This document shows, piece by piece, positions 18,025-28,185 of a DNA stretch of 39,475 nt; the stretch's first letter is position 1; the number at the start of each line of letters is the position of its first letter. The translations under genes and the position numbers were made by a program. This stretch comes from Bacteroidota bacterium (GTDB lineage Bacteria; Bacteroidota; Rhodothermia; Rhodothermales; Bin80). Below the pieces are notes generated by a model, which saw only the letters and a list, made by a program, of their open reading frames with translations, was not told the DNA's origin and searched no databases. The stretch is taken from assembly GCA_026709065.1 (NCBI GenBank), contig JAPOTS010000060.1, positions 1-39,475 on the forward strand, in the 5' to 3' direction.

Positions 18025-19917
18025 TTATAACTTCTGCTCAAGAACGATAAACGAAAGCGGGGGGAGAGTCACCACGATGCTTGATGGATGACCGTGGCAT
18101 GGTATTGTTTTGGGTTTGATATGCCCATGATTTATGATTCCACTGCCTCCATATTTAAGGTTATCGCTGTTAAGGCGTTCAGTCCAAGATCCTCCAGACA
18201 TGACACCGATTCGAAAATCATGGCGAGGTACAGGTGTCAAATTCAGAGCAAAAAGAATGGTACAGGGATGATTTCCCCGCTTATAAATGAGAATAGAATC
18301 TTCAACATGTTCGCCAATCCATCCCCAGCTATGTGGGGTATCATCCCAAAGAGCAGGGGAGTTATGATACAAGGAATTTAAATCTTGGACGAGTCGGAAT
18401 ATGCCTTGATGTGTAGCGTAGTTGAGCAGATCCCAATTGAGTGGGTGATCGTGAGTCCATTCCTGTGTTTGAGCAAATTCACTTCCCATAAACAGCATTT
18501 TCTTTCCAGGATGCCCATACATATGGCCAAGAAGGATTCGGTAATTAGCAGCTTTCTGCCACTCATCTCCAGGCATACGATCCCAGAGTGACCCTTTACC
18601 ATGTACAACCTCGTCATGAGATAGAGGGAGAATATAATGCTCACTAAATGCGTAGACAAACGAGAAAGTGAGAAGGTTATGATGGTATTTTCGATGAACA
18701 GGATCCTCACTCATATAGGCGAGAACATCATTCATCCATCCCATATTCCATTTGAACATAAACCCTAACCCATGGTCATAGGTCGGCGCAGAAACCCCCT
18801 GAAATGCCGTTGACTCTTCTGCAATGGTAAAGGCACCAGGGAAATGAGAATAGACCGCCTCATTGGTTTTCTTGATGACATCAATCGCTTCAAGGTTTTC
18901 TCGCTCACCATAGATATTCGGAGTCCATTCATCGCGTGAATAATCCCGATATAACATGGATGCCACAGCATCTACTCTAAGGCCATCAACATGGTATTTG
19001 TCAAGCCAGAACAGTGCATTTGAGATTAAAAAGTTACGAACTCCCGGTTTTGCGTAGTCAAAGATGAGGGTGCCCCAATCGGGATGATATCGCATTTTGG
19101 GGTCATCATATTCATAGAGCGTAGAGCCATCAAAAAAGACTAAGCCTTGGGCATCGGTTGCAAAATGTGCAGGGACCCAATCAATGATGACTCCGATACC
19201 ACGCTGATGGAGCGTATCAATGAGAAACATTAGATCTGTTGGGGATCCATAGCGATGGGTTGGTGAATAGTAGCCGACGATCTGGTATCCCCAAGAGCCG
19301 TAATAGGCGTGCTCAGCAACAGGGAGAAGTTCAACATGGGTAAAGCCGAGTTCTAATACATGATCGGCAAGAGCAGGAGCTATCTCTCTGTAAGACAATG
19401 AGGTACCATACTCTTTGTGTCGCCAAGATCCAAGGTGTACCTCGTATATTGAGATAGGCTGATTGAGTGTTGCAGGACCATTTCGCTTGTTCATCCATGT
19501 CTGATCATTCCACTGATAGTTGAGTGGATTCAGTATTGCAGAGAGGCCCTCAACACTACTTCCATGTGAGAGGGGAGGCTCCATCTGGACGGCATAGGGG
19601 TCGCATTTATCAACGACATATTGATCTCGTTGGATGTGAAATTTGTAGCGATGCCCTTCAGAGGCCTGCATTACGAAGCATTCCCAGCACCCACTGCCCA
19701 TTTTTTGCATTGGATTTGCCTGATCATCCCAGCCATTAAAATCGCCAACAACGTTTACTTGATCCGCATGAGGGGCCCAGACTGCAAACCATGCTCCTTG
19801 AGATTGCAGATGTCCACCGAGGCGTTCATAGCTTTTGGTCAGTGTGCCTTGATCCCAAAAGTAAAGGTCTTCGTCAGAAAGCCAGCGATGGTTTGGAGAG
19901 GAGGAGTCAGTGGGCAT
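18025..19917 (-). CDS. glgB: 1,4-alpha-glucan branching enzyme
   Basis: A 630-aa GH13 branching enzyme that cuts alpha-1,4-glucan chains and reattaches them by alpha-1,6 bonds to make glycogen. The N-terminal CBM48 module (about 38-105) contains [20 protein letters not shown]. Catalytic residues are Asp316 ([19 protein letters not shown]), Glu367 (TIAEESTAF) and Asp435 ([21 protein letters not shown]). The length fits GlgB forms lacking the extra N1 domain. It starts 5 bp after the glgE stop, so the two form an operon in which GlgE elongates and GlgB branches. Confidence 0.97.
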
Positions 19918-19922
19918 GTGGA

Positions 19923-21896
19923 CTAAACAAAATAGTCAAAATCAGCTTCAGTTCGTACGCGCGGCATAACTTGAAATATTCTTGCAGGCATTGAATGAGG
20001 GTTGAGATGAATCATGTGGAAACGTCCTTGCCAAATATATCGCTCTCCTTTAAGTAAGTCAAGCATCTGAAACGGTGAATTTTGAGGTAGATTCAATGCT
20101 TCAAGTGGAATCTCAATTTCTCCTTTTTGTTCTTGAAATGGATCCAAACTGACGATGCATACAATCGAATTAGAGTCAGAATGTTTTGAGTAGGCCAGCA
20201 TCAGGGGATTTTCAATCTTGAGGAATTTGAGATTCCTGAATTCCTGAAAAGCGATATTTTCCTTTCTAATCTGGTTCACAGTTTGAAATAAACCCTGTAA
20301 GGATTCGGGATCATTCCAGTTCCAGTTGCGGATTTCATATTTTTCATTATCGGCATACTCTTCGCGGTCGGGGTGTTGATTAGCAATGACATGTTCATAG
20401 GGGGGGCCATAGATGCCATAAATTGGAGACAGGGTTGCGGCAAGGATATATCGAATGATATGTGCAGCACGGCCTCCACTGGTAAGATATTCATGTAGAA
20501 TATCGGGAGTATTGGGCCAGAAGGACGGTCGGAAGTATTCAGCTATATTGGTAGAGGTCAGTTCCGTTAGATAATCGGTAATTTCCTCTTTGGTATTGCG
20601 CCAAGTGAAGTATGTATACGAGTTATTGAACCCTAATTTTGCAAGGGTATACATTGATTTTGGGCGTGTGAAAGCTTCTGCAAGGAAAATGACCTCAGGA
20701 TGTTTCACTCGCAATCGGCTCAAACACCATGTCCAAAAGGCCATGGGCTTCGTATGTGGATTATCAACCCGAAAAATTAATACGCCACGTTGAATCCAAA
20801 ATTCAAATACATTCTTGAGTGCTTCCCAGAGTTCTCGCCAATCGGCACATTCAAAATCAAGTGGATACACATCCTGATATTTTTTAGGAGGATTTTCGGC
20901 AGATCGGATGCTGCCGTCTGCACGCTTCTTAAACCATTCAGGGTGCTGTTTTATCCATGGATGATCAGGTGAGCACTGAAAGGCTATATCAAGAGCGACC
21001 TCCAATCCATTTGCATCTGCGGTTTTCATAAACCTGTCAAATGCGGGCAGTCCTCCTAAATCTTTATGCACACTGGTATGTCCCCCATATGGACTGCCAA
21101 TAGCCCAGGGGCTTCCTGGCTCATTAGATTTAGCTTTTGGATGATTGTCTTTACCTTTTCTAAAAGTCGTACCAATTGGATGGATAGGAGGAAGATAAAC
21201 AATATCGAATCCAAGGTCTCGGATCCGTTCAAGCCTCAAGGCAGCATCGTCAAAAGTCCCATGAATCCCTTGCACTTGGGAAGTAGATCGTGGGAAGAAC
21301 TCATACCATGCAGCGAACGCGGCAAGCTTCCGATCAACTTCTACGGTGAGCGGGTTGCTTTGAACCGCCCCTTTTTGAGGGTCATTGGACAAGGCAAGTT
21401 GTAGAGATTCTTCATCAAGAGGTGCTTCTATGTCACCATTAACATAGCGCTCTGCAAAAGCCAATAGTTTTTTACGTTGTTCTTGTGGAGCATTGACCGC
21501 ATATTCTTTGAGTAGAGCTGCGCCATCAAGGAGTTCTATTTTCAATTCAGAGGCTGGCATTTTTGCCTCAAAGCGGCGTTCGTACTGCTCATGCCATGAT
21601 CCATAGCGATTGATCCATGCACGCACATGATAGGTATAAAGCCCTAGAGAATCAGCTATAAAGGTGCCCGTATATTCATCATTGTGCATTGGAGTCATCT
21701 TCACCTCTTCTGTCGCACCACCAAGACGTGTGACATACAGTCCTGCACATAGTTGGTCATGGCCATCAACGATGATGCCAGCTACGACGTGGACTGGCTC
21801 CCCAACGGTTCGTTTAATCGGCCAGTCACCTTCAAGAACACGGGGGCTAACAGACGTAATGAACACTCTTGACCAGCGTTCTGAGGCAGACTTCAT
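19923..21896 (-). CDS. glgE: Alpha-1,4-glucan:maltose-1-phosphate maltosyltransferase
   Basis: A 657-aa GH13_3 enzyme that transfers maltosyl units from maltose-1-phosphate onto alpha-1,4-glucan. The N-terminal beta-sandwich domain (about 1-115) is followed by the catalytic barrel with [19 protein letters not shown] (201-219), [18 protein letters not shown], the nucleophile Asp378 in [14 protein letters not shown] and the acid/base Glu407 in [13 protein letters not shown]. These motifs separate GlgE from ordinary amylases. The usual length is 650-700 aa. It heads the glgE-glgB operon and is divergent from glgX across a 97-bp region containing an inverted repeat. TreS/Mak or GlgM, which would make maltose-1-phosphate, are not in the window. 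Confidence 0.97.
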
Positions 21897-21961
21897 GATT
21901 GGTAGATCTTAATGTTGGTGATGAGATATTTTGGCTAAAAATACGGTTTAAGAGTTTAAGG

Positions 21962-21976
21962 CGTGATTTTATCACG
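21962..21976. promoter_or_regulatory. Inverted repeat operator candidate between glgE and glgX
   Basis: CGTGATTTTATCACG is a perfect 6-bp inverted repeat with a 3-nt centre, 17 nt before the glgX ATG and 65 nt before the glgE ATG on the other strand. It resembles a binding site for a dimeric regulator and could control both transcripts. No regulator gene is in the window. Confidence 0.45.
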
Positions 21977-21993
21977 GCTATCACATATAATTT

Positions 21994-24018
21994 ATGAATA
22001 AATCTCTTGATTTAGGAGCAAACTTAGATCACAATGGTGCGAATTTTTCAATTTTCAGTGCTAATGCTGAGCGTATTGAACTCGTCTTACTCAATGAAGA
22101 GCATGTGATTGAGCGGGTAATTGATCTCACCCATCGGTCAGGCGATGTGTGGCATCAGTATGTTGCAGGGATTAAATCAGGGCAATGTTATGCTTATCGT
22201 GTGTATGGTCAATGGGCCCCGCATGAAGGGCACCGCTTCAATGGTGCTAAGTTACTTTTAGACCCATATGCCCGTTTGATTAGTCGAATGCCTATCTGGG
22301 ACGAAAGCCTCTTTGGGCATGATCGATCCCATGATGATTTAATTCTTAATTCGGCAGATAGTGCTCCTTATGCACCAATCGGTAGGGTCATTGAGGCATC
22401 CACCATCGTAAGTCCGAAGCCTAAGATTCCGTGGTCAGACACAATTATCTACGAAACTCATGTGCGTGGACTGACAATCCAGAATCCCAATGTTCGATCA
22501 GAAATTCGAGGAACGTATCTCGGTGTTGCTTCAGAGCCGATTCTCATGCATTTAAAGCAGCTGGGGGTGACTACAATTGAGTTGCTACCGATCTACGCTA
22601 CATTACAGGATGAACGATTGATCAATCATGGGTTGTCACAGTACTGGGGATATAATCCTCTTTCATTTTTTGCACCCGATCCTCGATTTTCATCTGGGGG
22701 TCCGTCAACGGCAGTAGACGAATTCAAAGCGATGGTAGATGTCTTACATCAGAATGGATTTGAAGTGATTCTTGATGTAGTCTACAACCATACATGTGAG
22801 GGTAATCATTTAGGTCCTACATTATCATGGAGAGGAATTGATCATTCTTCATATTATATCACTCAGTCAAAACAATCTCGTTATTTGTATGACAGTTCTG
22901 GATGTGGCAATACCCTAAGGGTTGAGCATGCATTCGTACGTCGGCTTATAATGGATAGTCTTAGGTATTGGGTAGAAGTCATGAATGTTGATGGGTTTCG
23001 GTTTGATCTTACGACTTCGCTATTGAGAGAACGCACAAGGGTTAACTTGCAGAGTGGATGGCTCCATATGATCCAGCAAGATCCTATTCTATCTCAGGTA
23101 AAGCTCATTGCCGAGCCTTGGGATTTAGGTACTTCGGGCTATCAATTAGGGCAGTACCCTTATCCTTGGAGAGAATGGAACGATAAATATCGCGATGTGA
23201 TACGTCGTTACTGGAGTGGCGAAACGCGGACTACGGGGATGTTTGCGACTAGGATTGCGGGATCTAGTGACCTATTTTCTAAGGGGCATCGTCATCCTTC
23301 ATCGTCCATTAATTATGTCACATCTCACGATGGATTTACTTTAATGGATTTAGTGTCGTTTAAGAAAAAAGATAATCTGGCAAACTTAGAAAACAATCGG
23401 GATGGTACCAATGCTAATTACAGCCAGAATTGTGGGCATGAAGGGGCGACAACAGACGCTGATGTTCTAGCTTGCAGAGAACGCCTTCGTAAAAGTATTC
23501 TAACGACTTTGATGGTATCTCAGGGAGTTCCAATGATCTTAGGTGGAGATGAATTTTGCCGAACGCAGCATGGGAATAACAATCCATATTGTCAGGACAA
23601 TGACATCTCTTGGTATGACTGGAAATTGGCCGATTCCCAAACTAATTTTTTAAAATTTGTTCAAGAGTTAGTGGCTTTTCGTAAAGCATGCCCGTCATTG
23701 CGGAGGGGTAGGTTTTTGACCGGGCGGATAGGGGAGGATGGATTACCAGATGCTACTTGGTGGCATCCAGAGGGGCGAGTGATGAATTCTGATGATTGGA
23801 CTCGTACGCAAGCATTCGGGATGTGGCTTTCTGCACCAGACATGTTACTCATCTGTTTTAATCCTACAAAGGATGTGATTCAATTCATCATTCCAAATGA
23901 ATATAGTTGGAGTTGGGGCTTGGGCTGGGGTGATAGTGCCCTGCAGGATGACTCTGCAAGTGTTGCACCGCAATCCATCCTAATTCTTCGGAGTGAATCG
24001 CCTACTTTGAGTCGTTAA
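21994..24018 (+). CDS. glgX: Glycogen debranching enzyme (isoamylase type)
   Basis: A 674-aa GH13_11 debranching enzyme that hydrolyses alpha-1,6 branches of glycogen. The N-terminal CBM48 part (about 5-100) contains HNGANFSIFSANAERIELVL. The catalytic barrel contains ETHVRGLT, VVYNHTCEGN, nucleophile Asp338 (VDGFRFDLTTSLLRE), Glu374 (LIAEPWDLG) and Asp446 (VTSHDGFTLMDLVSF). GGDEFCRTQHGNNNPYCQDN is a hallmark of GlgX/TreX proteins. It is divergent from glgE and its last 39 bp overlap the 3' end of malQ on the opposite strand. It supplies linear chains to MalQ. Confidence 0.96.
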   Translation: MNKSLDLGANLDHNGANFSIFSANAERIELVLLNEEHVIERVIDLTHRSGDVWHQYVAGIKSGQCYAYRVYGQWAPHEGHRFNGAKLLLDPYARLISRMPIWDESLFGHDRSHDDLILNSADSAPYAPIGRVIEASTIVSPKPKIPWSDTIIYETHVRGLTIQNPNVRSEIRGTYLGVASEPILMHLKQLGVTTIELLPIYATLQDERLINHGLSQYWGYNPLSFFAPDPRFSSGGPSTAVDEFKAMVDVLHQNGFEVILDVVYNHTCEGNHLGPTLSWRGIDHSSYYITQSKQSRYLYDSSGCGNTLRVEHAFVRRLIMDSLRYWVEVMNVDGFRFDLTTSLLRERTRVNLQSGWLHMIQQDPILSQVKLIAEPWDLGTSGYQLGQYPYPWREWNDKYRDVIRRYWSGETRTTGMFATRIAGSSDLFSKGHRHPSSSINYVTSHDGFTLMDLVSFKKKDNLANLENNRDGTNANYSQNCGHEGATTDADVLACRERLRKSILTTLMVSQGVPMILGGDEFCRTQHGNNNPYCQDNDISWYDWKLADSQTNFLKFVQELVAFRKACPSLRRGRFLTGRIGEDGLPDATWWHPEGRVMNSDDWTRTQAFGMWLSAPDMLLICFNPTKDVIQFIIPNEYSWSWGLGWGDSALQDDSASVAPQSILILRSESPTLSR

Positions 24019-25467
24019 GCTGTTGAGCCAGTGAGAGGTCACATCTTTGAGCTGAGTCAGTTGCTGATCAGTTAAGGCCCATTCCCAGTTACCATCAAGT
24101 GTTCCGGGGAAATTCATCCGGGCATCGCTGTCAAGTGATAGGACATCCTGAACGGGCACAATGACGATGCCCGCGTCTGAATGCATGCATCGTTCAATGA
24201 CATTAGGGCAGACATCATCGGATGACTCAATATGAAGATAAGCTTTGGCAAATCCATGCTCATAATCTGATAATTCGTGCCACCAACCTAATAAGGTATT
24301 ATTGTCATGTGTGCCTGAGTATATACATTGATCGGGTCTATAATTATGGGGTAAGTGTAGGTTATCGTTGCCCGCATCAAATCCAAATTGAATGACAGCC
24401 ATGCCAGGGAAGCCATTGTGATTCATAAGTTCAATCACATCGGGAGTTATGACACCTAAGTCTTCAGCAATCAGGTTCATCGCACCGATCTCTTTGCTGA
24501 GTTGATCAAATAAAGATTGTCCAGGGCCCGTTACCCAGCGCCCATGCACTGCCGTTTCTTCGGAAGCGGGGACTTGCCAGTAACCAGCAAATCCGCGAAA
24601 ATGATCCAAGCGAACGCTATCGCACAAGCTTAGAGCGCGTTTCATACGCTGTACCCACCACTGATACCCTTGCTGGTGCATCGTATCCCATTGATAGATT
24701 GGATTTCCCCATCTTTGCCCTGTGTCGCTGAACAGATCTGGAGGGACCCCAGCGACCACTAATGGTTCACCGGAATCATCAAGTTGAAATAACTCTGGGT
24801 GTGCCCAGACATCAACACTATCGTGTGCAACATAGATGGGCAAATCTCCCATGATTTTCACGCCATTTTGATGGCAATATTCGGATAGTTTATGCCATTG
24901 AGAATCAAAGATGAACTGTTCAAAGAGAAAGAATTGAATCTCGGGTAGATCAATGTTGCAATCTGAGGGATTGAATTGGTGATCTTCATCTGGCCAACTT
25001 GTCCATATTTGATGATGGTATTTTGTTTTTCTCGCTTGAAATGCTGCATAAGGAATCAGCCAATCTTTTTCTCGATCAATAAACGACTGAAATTCACTCG
25101 GAGCAGGTTGTTCAACAAATTGATCATATGCCAGATGAAGGAGGGCAATTTTGTAATTTAAGGCACTCTGGTAATCAACCTTGCCTTCGGTGAGGGGATA
25201 GTTGGTGTAGATTTTGGATTCGGGGACCCAACCGTCTTGCACCAAGATTTCGGGGCTAATCAATAGGGGATTTCCAGCGAATGAGGCAGGACTTGCATAA
25301 GGAGAATTTCCAAGTCCGACTGGGCAAAGGGGAAGCATTTGCCACCATGTTTGACCAGACTTGACCAAGGTATCTACAAATCTCCAAGCAGCTGGTCCCA
25401 GATCACCGATCCCAAATTGGGTGGGTAATGAAGTGACATGTAGCAAAAGCCCACTAGATCGTATCAT
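23980..25467 (-). CDS. malQ: 4-alpha-glucanotransferase (amylomaltase)
   Basis: A 495-aa GH77 enzyme that transfers segments of alpha-1,4-glucan between maltooligosaccharides, releasing glucose. The start RSSGLLLHVTSLPTQFGIGD is typical. Catalytic residues are Asp288 (SVRLDHFRGFAGYW), Glu335 (LIAEDLGVITPDV) and Asp388 (YSGTHDNNTLLGWW). The DLPIYVAHDSVDVWA and DLFSDTGQRWGNPIY segments are also family motifs. The length matches short bacterial MalQ. It is convergent with glgX, with a 39-bp 3' overlap, and belongs functionally with the glucan genes. Confidence 0.97.
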   Translation of the reverse strand: MIRSSGLLLHVTSLPTQFGIGDLGPAAWRFVDTLVKSGQTWWQMLPLCPVGLGNSPYASPASFAGNPLLISPEILVQDGWVPESKIYTNYPLTEGKVDYQSALNYKIALLHLAYDQFVEQPAPSEFQSFIDREKDWLIPYAAFQARKTKYHHQIWTSWPDEDHQFNPSDCNIDLPEIQFFLFEQFIFDSQWHKLSEYCHQNGVKIMGDLPIYVAHDSVDVWAHPELFQLDDSGEPLVVAGVPPDLFSDTGQRWGNPIYQWDTMHQQGYQWWVQRMKRALSLCDSVRLDHFRGFAGYWQVPASEETAVHGRWVTGPGQSLFDQLSKEIGAMNLIAEDLGVITPDVIELMNHNGFPGMAVIQFGFDAGNDNLHLPHNYRPDQCIYSGTHDNNTLLGWWHELSDYEHGFAKAYLHIESSDDVCPNVIERCMHSDAGIVIVPVQDVLSLDSDARMNFPGTLDGNWEWALTDQQLTQLKDVTSHWLNSLTTQSRRFTPKN

Positions 25468-25865: not shown

Positions 25866-25991
25866 TTATAGGGATTGATCCAGTGGGCTAATCAGATCAT
25901 TCGGAGGCTGTGGTCTTGGCCTACCGGATTTCTGATTGGGTGCTGGTTTGGGTGATTTGGTGAGTTCATGGCATTGTTGAGTTAGCGTCAT
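25866..25991 (-). CDS. Possible 41-aa basic, proline-rich small protein
   Basis: A small frame starts with ATG at 25991, overlapping the DUF262-HNH stop codon by 4 bp (ATGA), and ends at TAA (25866-25868). The 41 residues are rich in Pro, Lys and Arg (KSPKPAPNQKSGRPRPQPP) with no membrane segment. The ATGA arrangement suggests translational coupling as a third gene of the operon. I do not recognise a family, and such a short frame could be open by chance, so the call is tentative. Confidence 0.35.
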   Translation of the reverse strand: MTLTQQCHELTKSPKPAPNQKSGRPRPQPPNDLISPLDQSL

Positions 25992-27157
25992 GATGATGCC
26001 CAGAGATCTTTTATCTGTGTAGCAGTTTTCTTGTGATGCTCTGCCTTACAAATCATCTGGCAATTCTCAGCATCTGTTTTTCCTCCCTCAGACCATGGCT
26101 TGATATGATCTGCTTCCATCTCTTCAATAGGTAGCTCCTTGTTCGTAATAGCACAGATGCCCTCTTGTCTGTCATATGCTGATTGTCGTTGATCAGGTGT
26201 AAATGCACGACGGTTCAAATACTTTTCATCACCAGATAATACAAATGGATAGATGCCTGCGTGGTTGAGTTCATTGGAATGACACTTAAATAGATTCGTA
26301 ACCTTTTCTGCTACTTCGGCAGGATCATAATCTTTATCCTTGAACGCATGGTAAAGGCTTCCCCAGTCCACTGATTTCATTTTAGATCTGTGATTCTTCG
26401 AGTTTTCAGATATGTTGAATGTATATTCAATCCATTGATAAATACTCTCGAAGTAATCCCATAGATGTTTTGCTGATTGTTTATTTCGATGTTCGGCCAT
26501 GTACTCACGAATCGTAGAGTCTTGGTTGGAACCAGTTCTCCAGATCAAGATGCGCTCAAGATGATCTTGACGCTCCCGTTTTCCACTCATATATTTCCCG
26601 CACATGTCTGCTTGACCGCCGGTCTTTGTGAAATAGCTCTTTGCATCTGTGACCCAAGGACCATTGTAGATAGAGTTTCTCAATTCTTGGTTAGATAATT
26701 CTTTTGCGCCTGTATTGATGGTCTGAAACCAACGCATTAATTCATTTGGATTCCCCTCACAAACATGAACATGGAGTTCATAATTTAAAATGCGTTCTTG
26801 ATTCTTTTTGTCTAATCCATGCCAGAATTGAGTATGGCGATCACCAATAGACATAGAGAATTCACGTATAACAATGAATTTGCAAATTGTAATAATTCGC
26901 TGTTGTCCGTCTAGTAACTCATATTCATATTCACTGTTGTTGGCCTTTGCAAAATAAATCAAGTTTACAGGGCGGTCAAAGTAAATGGACTGCATCAGTG
27001 CTTCTTGAAAATCTTTTTTCCCATCATAGATATATTCTCTCTGGTAGGGTGGGCGGATATTCAACCTTCCTCCATATCCAGTAACCAGTCCAGATTGATC
27101 ATTAGCATATCCGTCAATGATCTCTTTGATTGTGATTTTTTGTTCTTGGATGTTCAT
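25988..27157 (-). CDS. DUF262-HNH endonuclease, probable restriction partner
   Basis: A 389-aa protein with two parts. Residues about 10-230 form a DUF262 (ParB/sulfiredoxin-like, GmrS-type) domain with RPPYQREY (35-42) and the DGQQR motif (83-87) that in this family binds and hydrolyses nucleotide. Residues about 325-380 form a classic HNH nuclease: Cys335 (GICAIT), Asp350-His351 (EADHIKPWSEGG), Asn365 (AENCQMIC) and His374-His375, with Cys335/Cys338-like spacing not fully typical of zinc fingers. The gene begins 2 bp after the stop of the EcoRI-type methyltransferase, so they form one operon. Inference: this is the nuclease of a restriction-modification or modification-dependent defence pair. 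It would be cytoplasmic. Confidence 0.85.
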   Translation of the reverse strand: MNIQEQKITIKEIIDGYANDQSGLVTGYGGRLNIRPPYQREYIYDGKKDFQEALMQSIYFDRPVNLIYFAKANNSEYEYELLDGQQRIITICKFIVIREFSMSIGDRHTQFWHGLDKKNQERILNYELHVHVCEGNPNELMRWFQTINTGAKELSNQELRNSIYNGPWVTDAKSYFTKTGGQADMCGKYMSGKRERQDHLERILIWRTGSNQDSTIREYMAEHRNKQSAKHLWDYFESIYQWIEYTFNISENSKNHRSKMKSVDWGSLYHAFKDKDYDPAEVAEKVTNLFKCHSNELNHAGIYPFVLSGDEKYLNRRAFTPDQRQSAYDRQEGICAITNKELPIEEMEADHIKPWSEGGKTDAENCQMICKAEHHKKTATQIKDLWASS

Positions 27158-27159
27158 GA

Positions 27160-28185
27160 TTAGATCTGCTTATTTCGGATAAAAATACGTTTGTAGACTT
27201 TCTGTCCATTAATAGTTGCTTGTCTAACTTTGCTTTTGGAATCCCAAAGACCACAAGAAAAACCACTTCCCTCGCTTTCTGTTGCTCCCATAATCTCAAA
27301 CTGTTCTGGATTGTACTTGTCCAAGAAGGTAATAGGAACTCCCATTATTCCAGCATAATCAACTGGAATATGCTTTGTCTTACTTACCTCAATTGCATCA
27401 TAATTGTCATAGTGCGGGTATTCTTCTGGTGTGTATCTCTTGTAGAGAATCATCTCATCATTCCGCTTTTTGTGGGGCAGGTTTGTAAACCAACAAGCAT
27501 TCCCCAACCTTCCTTTTACAATGCCATCTACAATTCGGTATGCACTACCTTCTTTTTTTGTTTCAACCAGCTCTTTTGCATACTCATCAGGCACATCAAA
27601 AAGCATGTCTCGCCCAGAGGTTCCGTATCCTAACCAGATCTTATTCTGCATAATAAGCGGGAAAATCTCTTTGTAGGTAATCGCATTCATATTCCCAATA
27701 ATCAAAAACTTTTTATCATACTCCATTAACTGCGCCACATATTCTCTGAAAAGAGAAAACGGTGGATTGGTTACTACAATATCGGCTTCTTTCAATAACT
27801 CAATACACTCAGCACTCCGAAAATCCCCATCACCCTTCAAAGGCTTTACATGAATCTCATGTGGATCAGGGCGGCAATTCCCATCTTGATCTCCATAGTA
27901 TTCCAGATAAACTGCTTTCTCTGAATCATGCTGTGAAAACAGATCGGGTTGTTGATTTTTATAGCAAGTCGCGATGAGTTTCTTCAATCCATACCACTCA
28001 AACTGTTTTGAGAAGAATTCAAAGAACTTGCTCACGCGTGGGTCATCACAATTACAATAGACCACTTTACCATAAAAATGATCTTTGTGGTGACGTAACT
28101 CGTTTTCAACAACACGTAACCGCGTATAGAACTCATCCTTCTTTGCACGTTTTGCACCTTGCAAGTTTACATTTTTGCTCATCAA
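27160..28185 (-). CDS. EcoRI-type adenine-specific DNA methyltransferase
   Basis: A 341-aa protein of the EcoRI methylase family, which methylates adenine using S-adenosylmethionine. The N-terminal KKDEFYTRL (15-23) and KVVYCNCDDPRVSKFFEFF (40-58) segments are highly characteristic of M.EcoRI relatives, and the catalytic motif IV is NPPF (140-143, IVVTNPPFSLFREYV). The family's founding member methylates GAATTC; whether this one does is unknown. It is first in a minus-strand operon with a DUF262-HNH nuclease, where an EcoRI-like nuclease would normally be expected. The start at the first of two consecutive ATGs (28185) is uncertain by one codon. The island is flanked by transposase remains, suggesting gain by transfer. 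Confidence 0.92.
   Translation of the reverse strand: MMSKNVNLQGAKRAKKDEFYTRLRVVENELRHHKDHFYGKVVYCNCDDPRVSKFFEFFSKQFEWYGLKKLIATCYKNQQPDLFSQHDSEKAVYLEYYGDQDGNCRPDPHEIHVKPLKGDGDFRSAECIELLKEADIVVTNPPFSLFREYVAQLMEYDKKFLIIGNMNAITYKEIFPLIMQNKIWLGYGTSGRDMLFDVPDEYAKELVETKKEGSAYRIVDGIVKGRLGNACWFTNLPHKKRNDEMILYKRYTPEEYPHYDNYDAIEVSKTKHIPVDYAGIMGVPITFLDKYNPEQFEIMGATESEGSGFSCGLWDSKSKVRQATINGQKVYKRIFIRNKQI

Follow-up and report, generated by a model that had tools for sequence, protein, structure and literature searches.

In Type I and Type III restriction-modification (RM) systems, interchangeable target-recognition modules are found on the specificity or methylation side and the nuclease subunit is constant (HsdS/HsdR and Mod/Res). 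Type IV, modification-dependent enzymes of the GmrSD/BrxU kind are directed against foreign modified DNA and possess an N-terminal DUF262 domain with a DGQQR motif and a C-terminal nuclease domain of the His-Me/HNH type. In the SspABCD–SspE and DndI systems, a DNA-marking enzyme is combined with a DUF262-nuclease protein; the SspABCD mark is a phosphorothioate, and in SspE the DGQQR motif forms an NTP pocket beside which the phosphorothioate is read via residues Y30/Q31 (PMC9646914). In SspE, the mark activates the nuclease. The Mycoplasma pneumoniae protein MPN198 (M.MpnI), described as an EcoRI-like methylase, is an orphan with no nuclease partner and methylates CTAT, a non-palindrome, when expressed in E. 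coli (PMC3536716). Placed in the EcoRI-like family by that description, MPN198 indicates that members of this family can differ in target specificity.

The window analysed here is a stretch of 39,475 nucleotides from a Bacteroidota genome and encodes, on its minus strand, two adjoining genes separated by 2 bp (27158–27159). The first, M (27160–28182), specifies a putative M.EcoRI-family DNA N6-adenine methyltransferase of 340 amino acids, counting from the ATG at 28182 to the stop codon at 27160, although a TTG one codon earlier (28185) could also serve as the start. The second, R (25988–27157), specifies a predicted DUF262-HNH nuclease of 389 amino acids. A first-pass annotation of this DNA had proposed just such a neighbouring pair and is borne out in this, in the 2-bp gap and in the motifs that it named (KKDEFYTRL, YCNCDDPRVSKFFEFF and NPPF in M, DGQQR and EADHIKPWSEGG in R); its interval, however, began at 25866, about 120 bp past the R stop codon, and no gene was seen in the ~120 bp between that point and the stop. 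Beside the operon, at 18025–25467, lies an apparent alpha-glucan metabolism cluster (branching enzyme, GlgE-like, debranching enzyme and MalQ-like), the gene names coming from sequence reading rather than a family search.

M matches the Pfam EcoRI_methylase family (PF13651) across the whole model (1–345 of 345, E 1.6e-132) and is 48% identical to M.EcoRI, with motifs in common. Its catalytic motif IV, NPPF (residues 139–142; 27757–27768), is present without exception in the 149 Ms aligned. R comprises a GmrSD_N (DUF262) domain (PF03235, E 4e-16; residues 34–164; 26666–27058) and a C-terminal HNH domain (PF01844, E 4.3e-9; residues 338–379; 26021–26146). M and R also match the Type II methyltransferase model PDLC03297 (MTase_II) and, over R residues 1–378, the Type II restriction enzyme model PDLC03418 (REase_II; E 6e-89) of PADLOC, a library of defence-protein models; both proteins are therefore already catalogued as putative Type II. 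Searching the PDB by sequence with R or M gave no useful relative. M thus belongs to the same methylase family as that of the EcoRI system, whereas R is unrelated to EcoRI. With GmrSD and BrxU R shares the combination of DUF262, nucleotide motif and His-Me finger nuclease, but it is shorter than these, has a canonical HNH (PF01844) rather than a DUF1524 domain, and is accompanied by a cognate methylase.

In the AlphaFold2 (AF2) model of R (mean pLDDT 85), a ParB/Srx-like domain at the N-terminus is linked by a helical middle to an HNH domain at the C-terminus. BrxU is the best structural match (Z 8.2), covering both ends with a high rmsd, followed by Gme HNH (7.6) and T4 EndoVII (7.2), which match the HNH domain, and by SspE (6.8), DndI (5.4), sulfiredoxin (5.4) and ParB-CDP (5.2), all of these Z values being modest; BrxU, SspE, ParB-CDP and sulfiredoxin are matches of the DUF262 domain. 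The DGQQR motif (residues 83–87; 26897–26911), equivalent to the NTP pocket motif of SspE (PMC9646914), is present in 149 of 149 Rs. Amongst the putative catalytic residues of the HNH domain (DH 350–351, N365 and H374), H351 is found in 149 of 149 Rs, N365 and an N or H at 374 each in 147 of 149, and D350 is nearly invariant. Because these pocket and HNH residues are conserved, R is likely to use NTP and to cut DNA, and the earlier proposal of a nucleotide-sensing DUF262 plus HNH cutter is plausible as a prediction. In the HNH region of the window R (26021–26156), each of the two CxxC pairs found in most relatives lacks its second cysteine (C338 to T and position 373 to E), and position 374 is H where most relatives have N; zinc binding may be altered in the small subclade to which it belongs.

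Scanning genome contigs with M as query identified 80 loci, most with an R homologue downstream, in Bacteroidota, Chloroflexota, Gemmatimonadota, Spirochaetota, Bacillota, Actinomycetota, Patescibacteria and other phyla, and a reverse scan of viral contigs with an R alignment as query likewise identified 80 loci. Pooled, the two scans yielded 165 M–R pairs, which span numerous phyla as well as plasmids and phage contigs; M precedes R in 162, and the gap is no more than 20 bp in 129. Of 345 genomes sampled evenly from the phylum, 14 encode R, every one of them together with M, and 17 encode M; M adjoins R at 19 of 19 R loci, two of these Ms being incomplete. The three genomes with M and no R comprise two in which M adjoins a gene for an EcoRI endonuclease (72% and 77% identity to EcoRI) and one with a divergent solitary M. 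A first count left ten R loci with no intact M: R is close to the contig start in six, M is cut or split in two (L198, truncated, and L189, located at the start of a contig), and the last two are the phage contigs L144 and L159 described below. Divergent Rs on complete plasmids (34–42% identity) likewise follow an EcoRI-family M. The pairing of M and R is well beyond chance, and it is widespread rather than a local oddity; that homologues of the two genes never adjoin, or always keep other partners, is contradicted by these counts. In our samples, M.EcoRI-family methylases are partnered far more often by DUF262-HNH than by anything else, with the EcoRI endonuclease a minority partner confined to one clade. 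The first-pass annotation, which described a hybrid RM operon, was right that the unit is RM-like, with DUF262-HNH replacing the EcoRI endonuclease, but the view of it as an odd hybrid is not supported.

A number of loci depart from the simple two-gene layout. On phage contigs L144 (2474–3343) and L159 (2422–3391), R is intact and M is broken by a frameshift or stop, which may reflect sequencing error or phase variation. Additional genes are also found: a DinD-like/Bro-N gene that either separates M from R or immediately precedes R (L015, L019, L022, L024, L028, L031 and L035, mostly Bacteroidales), an AAA ATPase plus DUF4276 (TOPRIM-like) pair between M and R (L018 and L042) and a DUF6602 gene in the same position (L043). 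The M–R unit is carried on resistance plasmids (L314, L316 and L101), with the optrA gene between M and R in L314, an Enterococcus dispar plasmid.

Alignment of the paired Ms reveals a conserved core interrupted by two segments, varA (residues ~186–230; 27493–27627 in the window) and varB (residues ~298–329; 27196–27291), in which similarity drops to the level of unrelated sequence, as judged against shuffled segments with mean identities of 0.20 for varA and 0.19 for varB and 99th percentiles of 0.33. With a 50% identity cut-off, 147 Ms divide into 33 types of varA and 62 of varB, which occur in 112 combinations; one module type recurs on M cores just 50–60% identical. In L024 and L025, R is 96% identical, varA 100% and varB 25%, whilst in L019 and L025, R is again 96% identical with varA at 31% and varB at 71%, patterns which imply that varA and varB move independently. 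The two segments are discrete, exchangeable modules; we infer that they serve in target recognition and that together they would set the target of M. The AF2 model of M has low confidence in varB, and a fold search with this model gave no match at E ≤ 0.001, with M.TaqI appearing weakly at rank 33.

Changes in the modules are not mirrored in R, which lacks any module-like variable region; only a short loop near residues 101–110 reaches a comparable variability. In 58 pairs of systems with Rs 85–99.9% identical, which are not phylogenetically independent, both module types are shared in 12% and neither in 60%. Two copies in a single genome (G251; L186 and L196) have Rs 97% identical, with eight of the ten differences in residues 2–16, and M cores 91% identical, yet varA and varB are only 22% and 13% identical. 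In such comparisons, nucleotide identity falls across the modules only. Comparison of the window with L006 gives Rs 79% identical and different types of both modules. Misassembly was considered as a source of such patterns, as short reads and long identical cores could join the wrong modules, but was ruled out because swaps are also seen when only complete isolate plasmids and isolate genomes are compared. Leuconostoc and Paucilactobacillus have Rs 87% identical with varA at 38% and varB at 22%; the corresponding figures are 83%, 72% and 19% for Gordonia and Rhodococcus ruber, 70%, 22% and 84% for Macrococcoides and Paenibacillus, and 71%, 11% and 21% for two plasmids of one Pseudarthrobacter strain. 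In Apilactobacillus and Pediococcus the M cores are 93% identical, varA 95% and varB 29%. That R is near-constant whilst the modules of M change suggests, from sequence comparison, that R is tied to no fixed sequence, and that the cutter does not itself read DNA sequence but is told where to act by M.

The pairing, modular swaps, constancy of R and conserved catalytic and nucleotide motifs computed here are brought together in a reading that we regard as moderately probable, in which M is both methylase and specificity subunit and recruits R, an HNH nuclease gated by nucleotide, to sites that lack methylation. M would methylate adenine in a short host sequence that its C-terminal half reads with varA and varB. 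R, whose nucleotide-binding DUF262 domain is joined via the helical middle to HNH, would lack a matching sequence specificity of its own and would be brought to DNA by binding the constant core of M. On meeting an unmethylated target in incoming DNA, M would switch on the bound R, with the DUF262 pocket binding or turning over NTP, and the HNH domain would then cut or nick; methylated host sites would give no trigger. Physical recruitment, NTP gating and cleavage at unmethylated sites are each predictions of this scheme. Replacing a module in M would give methylation and cutting a new target at once, with no change required of R. Should M targets be non-palindromic, a rule would be needed to spare newly replicated DNA. 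The first-pass annotation had offered a choice between a classical Type II pair and a modification-dependent one; this choice misses the better reading, as R shows no specificity of its own that would track M, and M is the most likely source of targeting.

An R that is indifferent to the target is compatible both with recruitment by M and with reading of N6-methyladenine (6mA). R might act free of M in the manner of SspE, its DUF262 domain reading 6mA in any context and self-methylation licensing or gating a non-specific HNH nuclease against unmarked foreign DNA. Such a mechanism accounts for R ignoring the modules of M, and R has the fold of SspE together with its DGQQR and YQR motifs (PMC9646914) and the structural matches to SspE and DndI noted above. 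The YQR and DGQQR motifs, however, are common to many DUF262 proteins and are no proof of mark reading, and SspE itself reads its mark in one sequence context. The mark predicted here is methyl-adenine made by one methylase; that of SspABCD is phosphorothioate. A general 6mA reader could join any adenine methylase, whereas R keeps essentially to one family: its partner in the 165 pairs is an EcoRI-family methylase, not SspABCD/Dnd genes. It is because of this near-exclusive partnership that recruitment by M is favoured over mark reading, which we consider unlikely, although it is the main rival.

Under an ordinary Type II scheme, R would recognise the same sequence as M independently and a few residues would suffice to change its specificity. 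The PADLOC models, drawn from catalogued systems, label both proteins Type II, the separate methylase and nuclease genes stand side by side as Type II RM requires, and R might read DNA through a few scattered residues. Against this, Rs up to 97% identical lie beside wholly different M modules, and R is under strong purifying selection (dN/dS of about 0.02–0.1 in four pairs). A search for a hidden specificity region in R, using 18 windows of 20 residues and two tests each, found none that tracks module type: the largest positive z was 2.5, with an effect of 0.027, and none was accepted. Two or even three Ms that differ in their modules can also accompany a single R. G003 has the order M-M-R-M, with varA common to all three Ms and three different varBs, the third M being frameshifted and carrying an EcoRI-type varB; in L065 (M-M-R), varA and varB both differ between the Ms. 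The window genome encodes one R and has roughly ten matches to M, many of them lying at the ends of contigs, the exact set being uncertain in so fragmented an assembly. Extra Ms would bring no gain to a self-targeting Type II nuclease but would each offer a further potential specificity to one directed by M, which is suggestive. Independent recognition by R is, on this evidence, quite improbable.

A further possibility is that varA and varB vary for some other reason, such as escape from phage inhibitors, and that all Ms and Rs share one target. The poor modelling of varB leaves some room for this, but Ms encoded beside a true EcoRI endonuclease provide a control that argues otherwise. In eight such Ms (from E. 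coli, Klebsiella (two), Leuconostoc, Staphylococcus, Rhodococcus and two viral contigs), varA is 62–95% and varB 74–100% identical, compared to 57–83% for the cores. Two additional EcoRI-linked Ms (L226 and L227) have modules like those of the eight, so that across all 10 loci varA and varB are as conserved as the catalytic core or more so. That both segments are frozen where M is paired with a nuclease of fixed sequence specificity means that they behave as target-recognition segments, and the methylation of CTAT rather than GAATTC by MPN198, described as EcoRI-like (PMC3536716), also speaks against a single shared target. We therefore judge this explanation to be very improbable. Some Ms linked to DUF262-HNH nucleases combine an EcoRI-type varA with another varB and others show the reverse; the window M is not amongst those resembling M.EcoRI in either module. 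Its varA (YGTSGRDMLFDVP...) and varB (MGATESEGSGF...) are of other types than those found beside the EcoRI endonuclease, that is, unlike those of GAATTC methylases, and the GAATTC target implied by the first-pass annotation is not supported. Scarcely credible is a Type IV enzyme of the GmrSD/BrxU kind acting on foreign modified DNA with M as an unrelated neighbour: the DUF262 plus HNH architecture and the top-ranking match to BrxU would fit, but R adjoins one methylase family near-universally and a nuclease cutting M's own 6mA mark would be lethal to the host.

Directing of R by M resembles the Type I and Type III systems in its logic, exchangeable and apparently target-recognising modules being combined with a constant nuclease. 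The differences are that M–R has neither a helicase motor nor a separate S subunit, that both modules reside in one small EcoRI-family methylase and that the nuclease is unrelated; a Pfam search of R found DUF262 and HNH domains only, with no HsdR/Res helicase-nuclease. None of the parts is new, and both proteins already carry Type II labels, but there is a fair chance that the pair represents a separate mechanistic class. In the open-access papers searched, we found no description of the M–R pair, of the modules or of a DUF262-HNH nuclease directed by M. In the M core tree, which is midpoint-rooted with the rooting not certain, the eight EcoRI-linked Ms form one clade (support 1.0) amongst DUF262-HNH-linked Ms (parent support 0.76). 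We put at slightly better than even the proposal that this is a distinct RM class, in which a two-module EcoRI-family methylase is the sole specificity factor and directs a helicase-free, nucleotide-gated DUF262-HNH nuclease lacking sequence specificity of its own, with EcoRI a derived case in which a sequence-specific nuclease captured one such methylase, whose modules then became frozen. If this is correct, a widespread system currently filed as Type II runs by another rule, in which interchangeable methylases serve one small nuclease and each can supply it with a new target; swapping a segment of ~30–45 residues would be a very simple way of changing the restriction target, and the build-up of methylases with differing modules around one nuclease would be explained. 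EcoRI, the textbook enzyme, would possibly be a specialised offshoot, and the recognition modules could be recombined to give new methylase specificities.

The dispersed M copies of the window genome show several further features. Contig C135 carries an intact M without R that has the same varA as the window M, is identical to it in DNA over ~585 bp and then continues into a different, EcoRI-type varB. In the solitary Ms of C135, C129 and C121 (L207, L204 and L201), ~50 bp resembling the start of R follow the M stop codon before unrelated sequence begins, and they look to derive from an M–R unit that lost R and then spread. A motif search for terminal inverted repeats as the vehicle of these copies gave matches equal in number to the reversed control, and this explanation was abandoned. 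The solitary M on C135 (L207; 2352–3608) lies between an exbD-like gene and leuB; in three relatives in the genus (L286, L287 and L288) these two genes are adjacent without M, identifying the L207 copy as an insertion. On C129 (L204; 2351–2677) is a short chimeric M in which core residues 1–65 are fused to the varB end, apparently through an internal deletion at a shared QFE motif.
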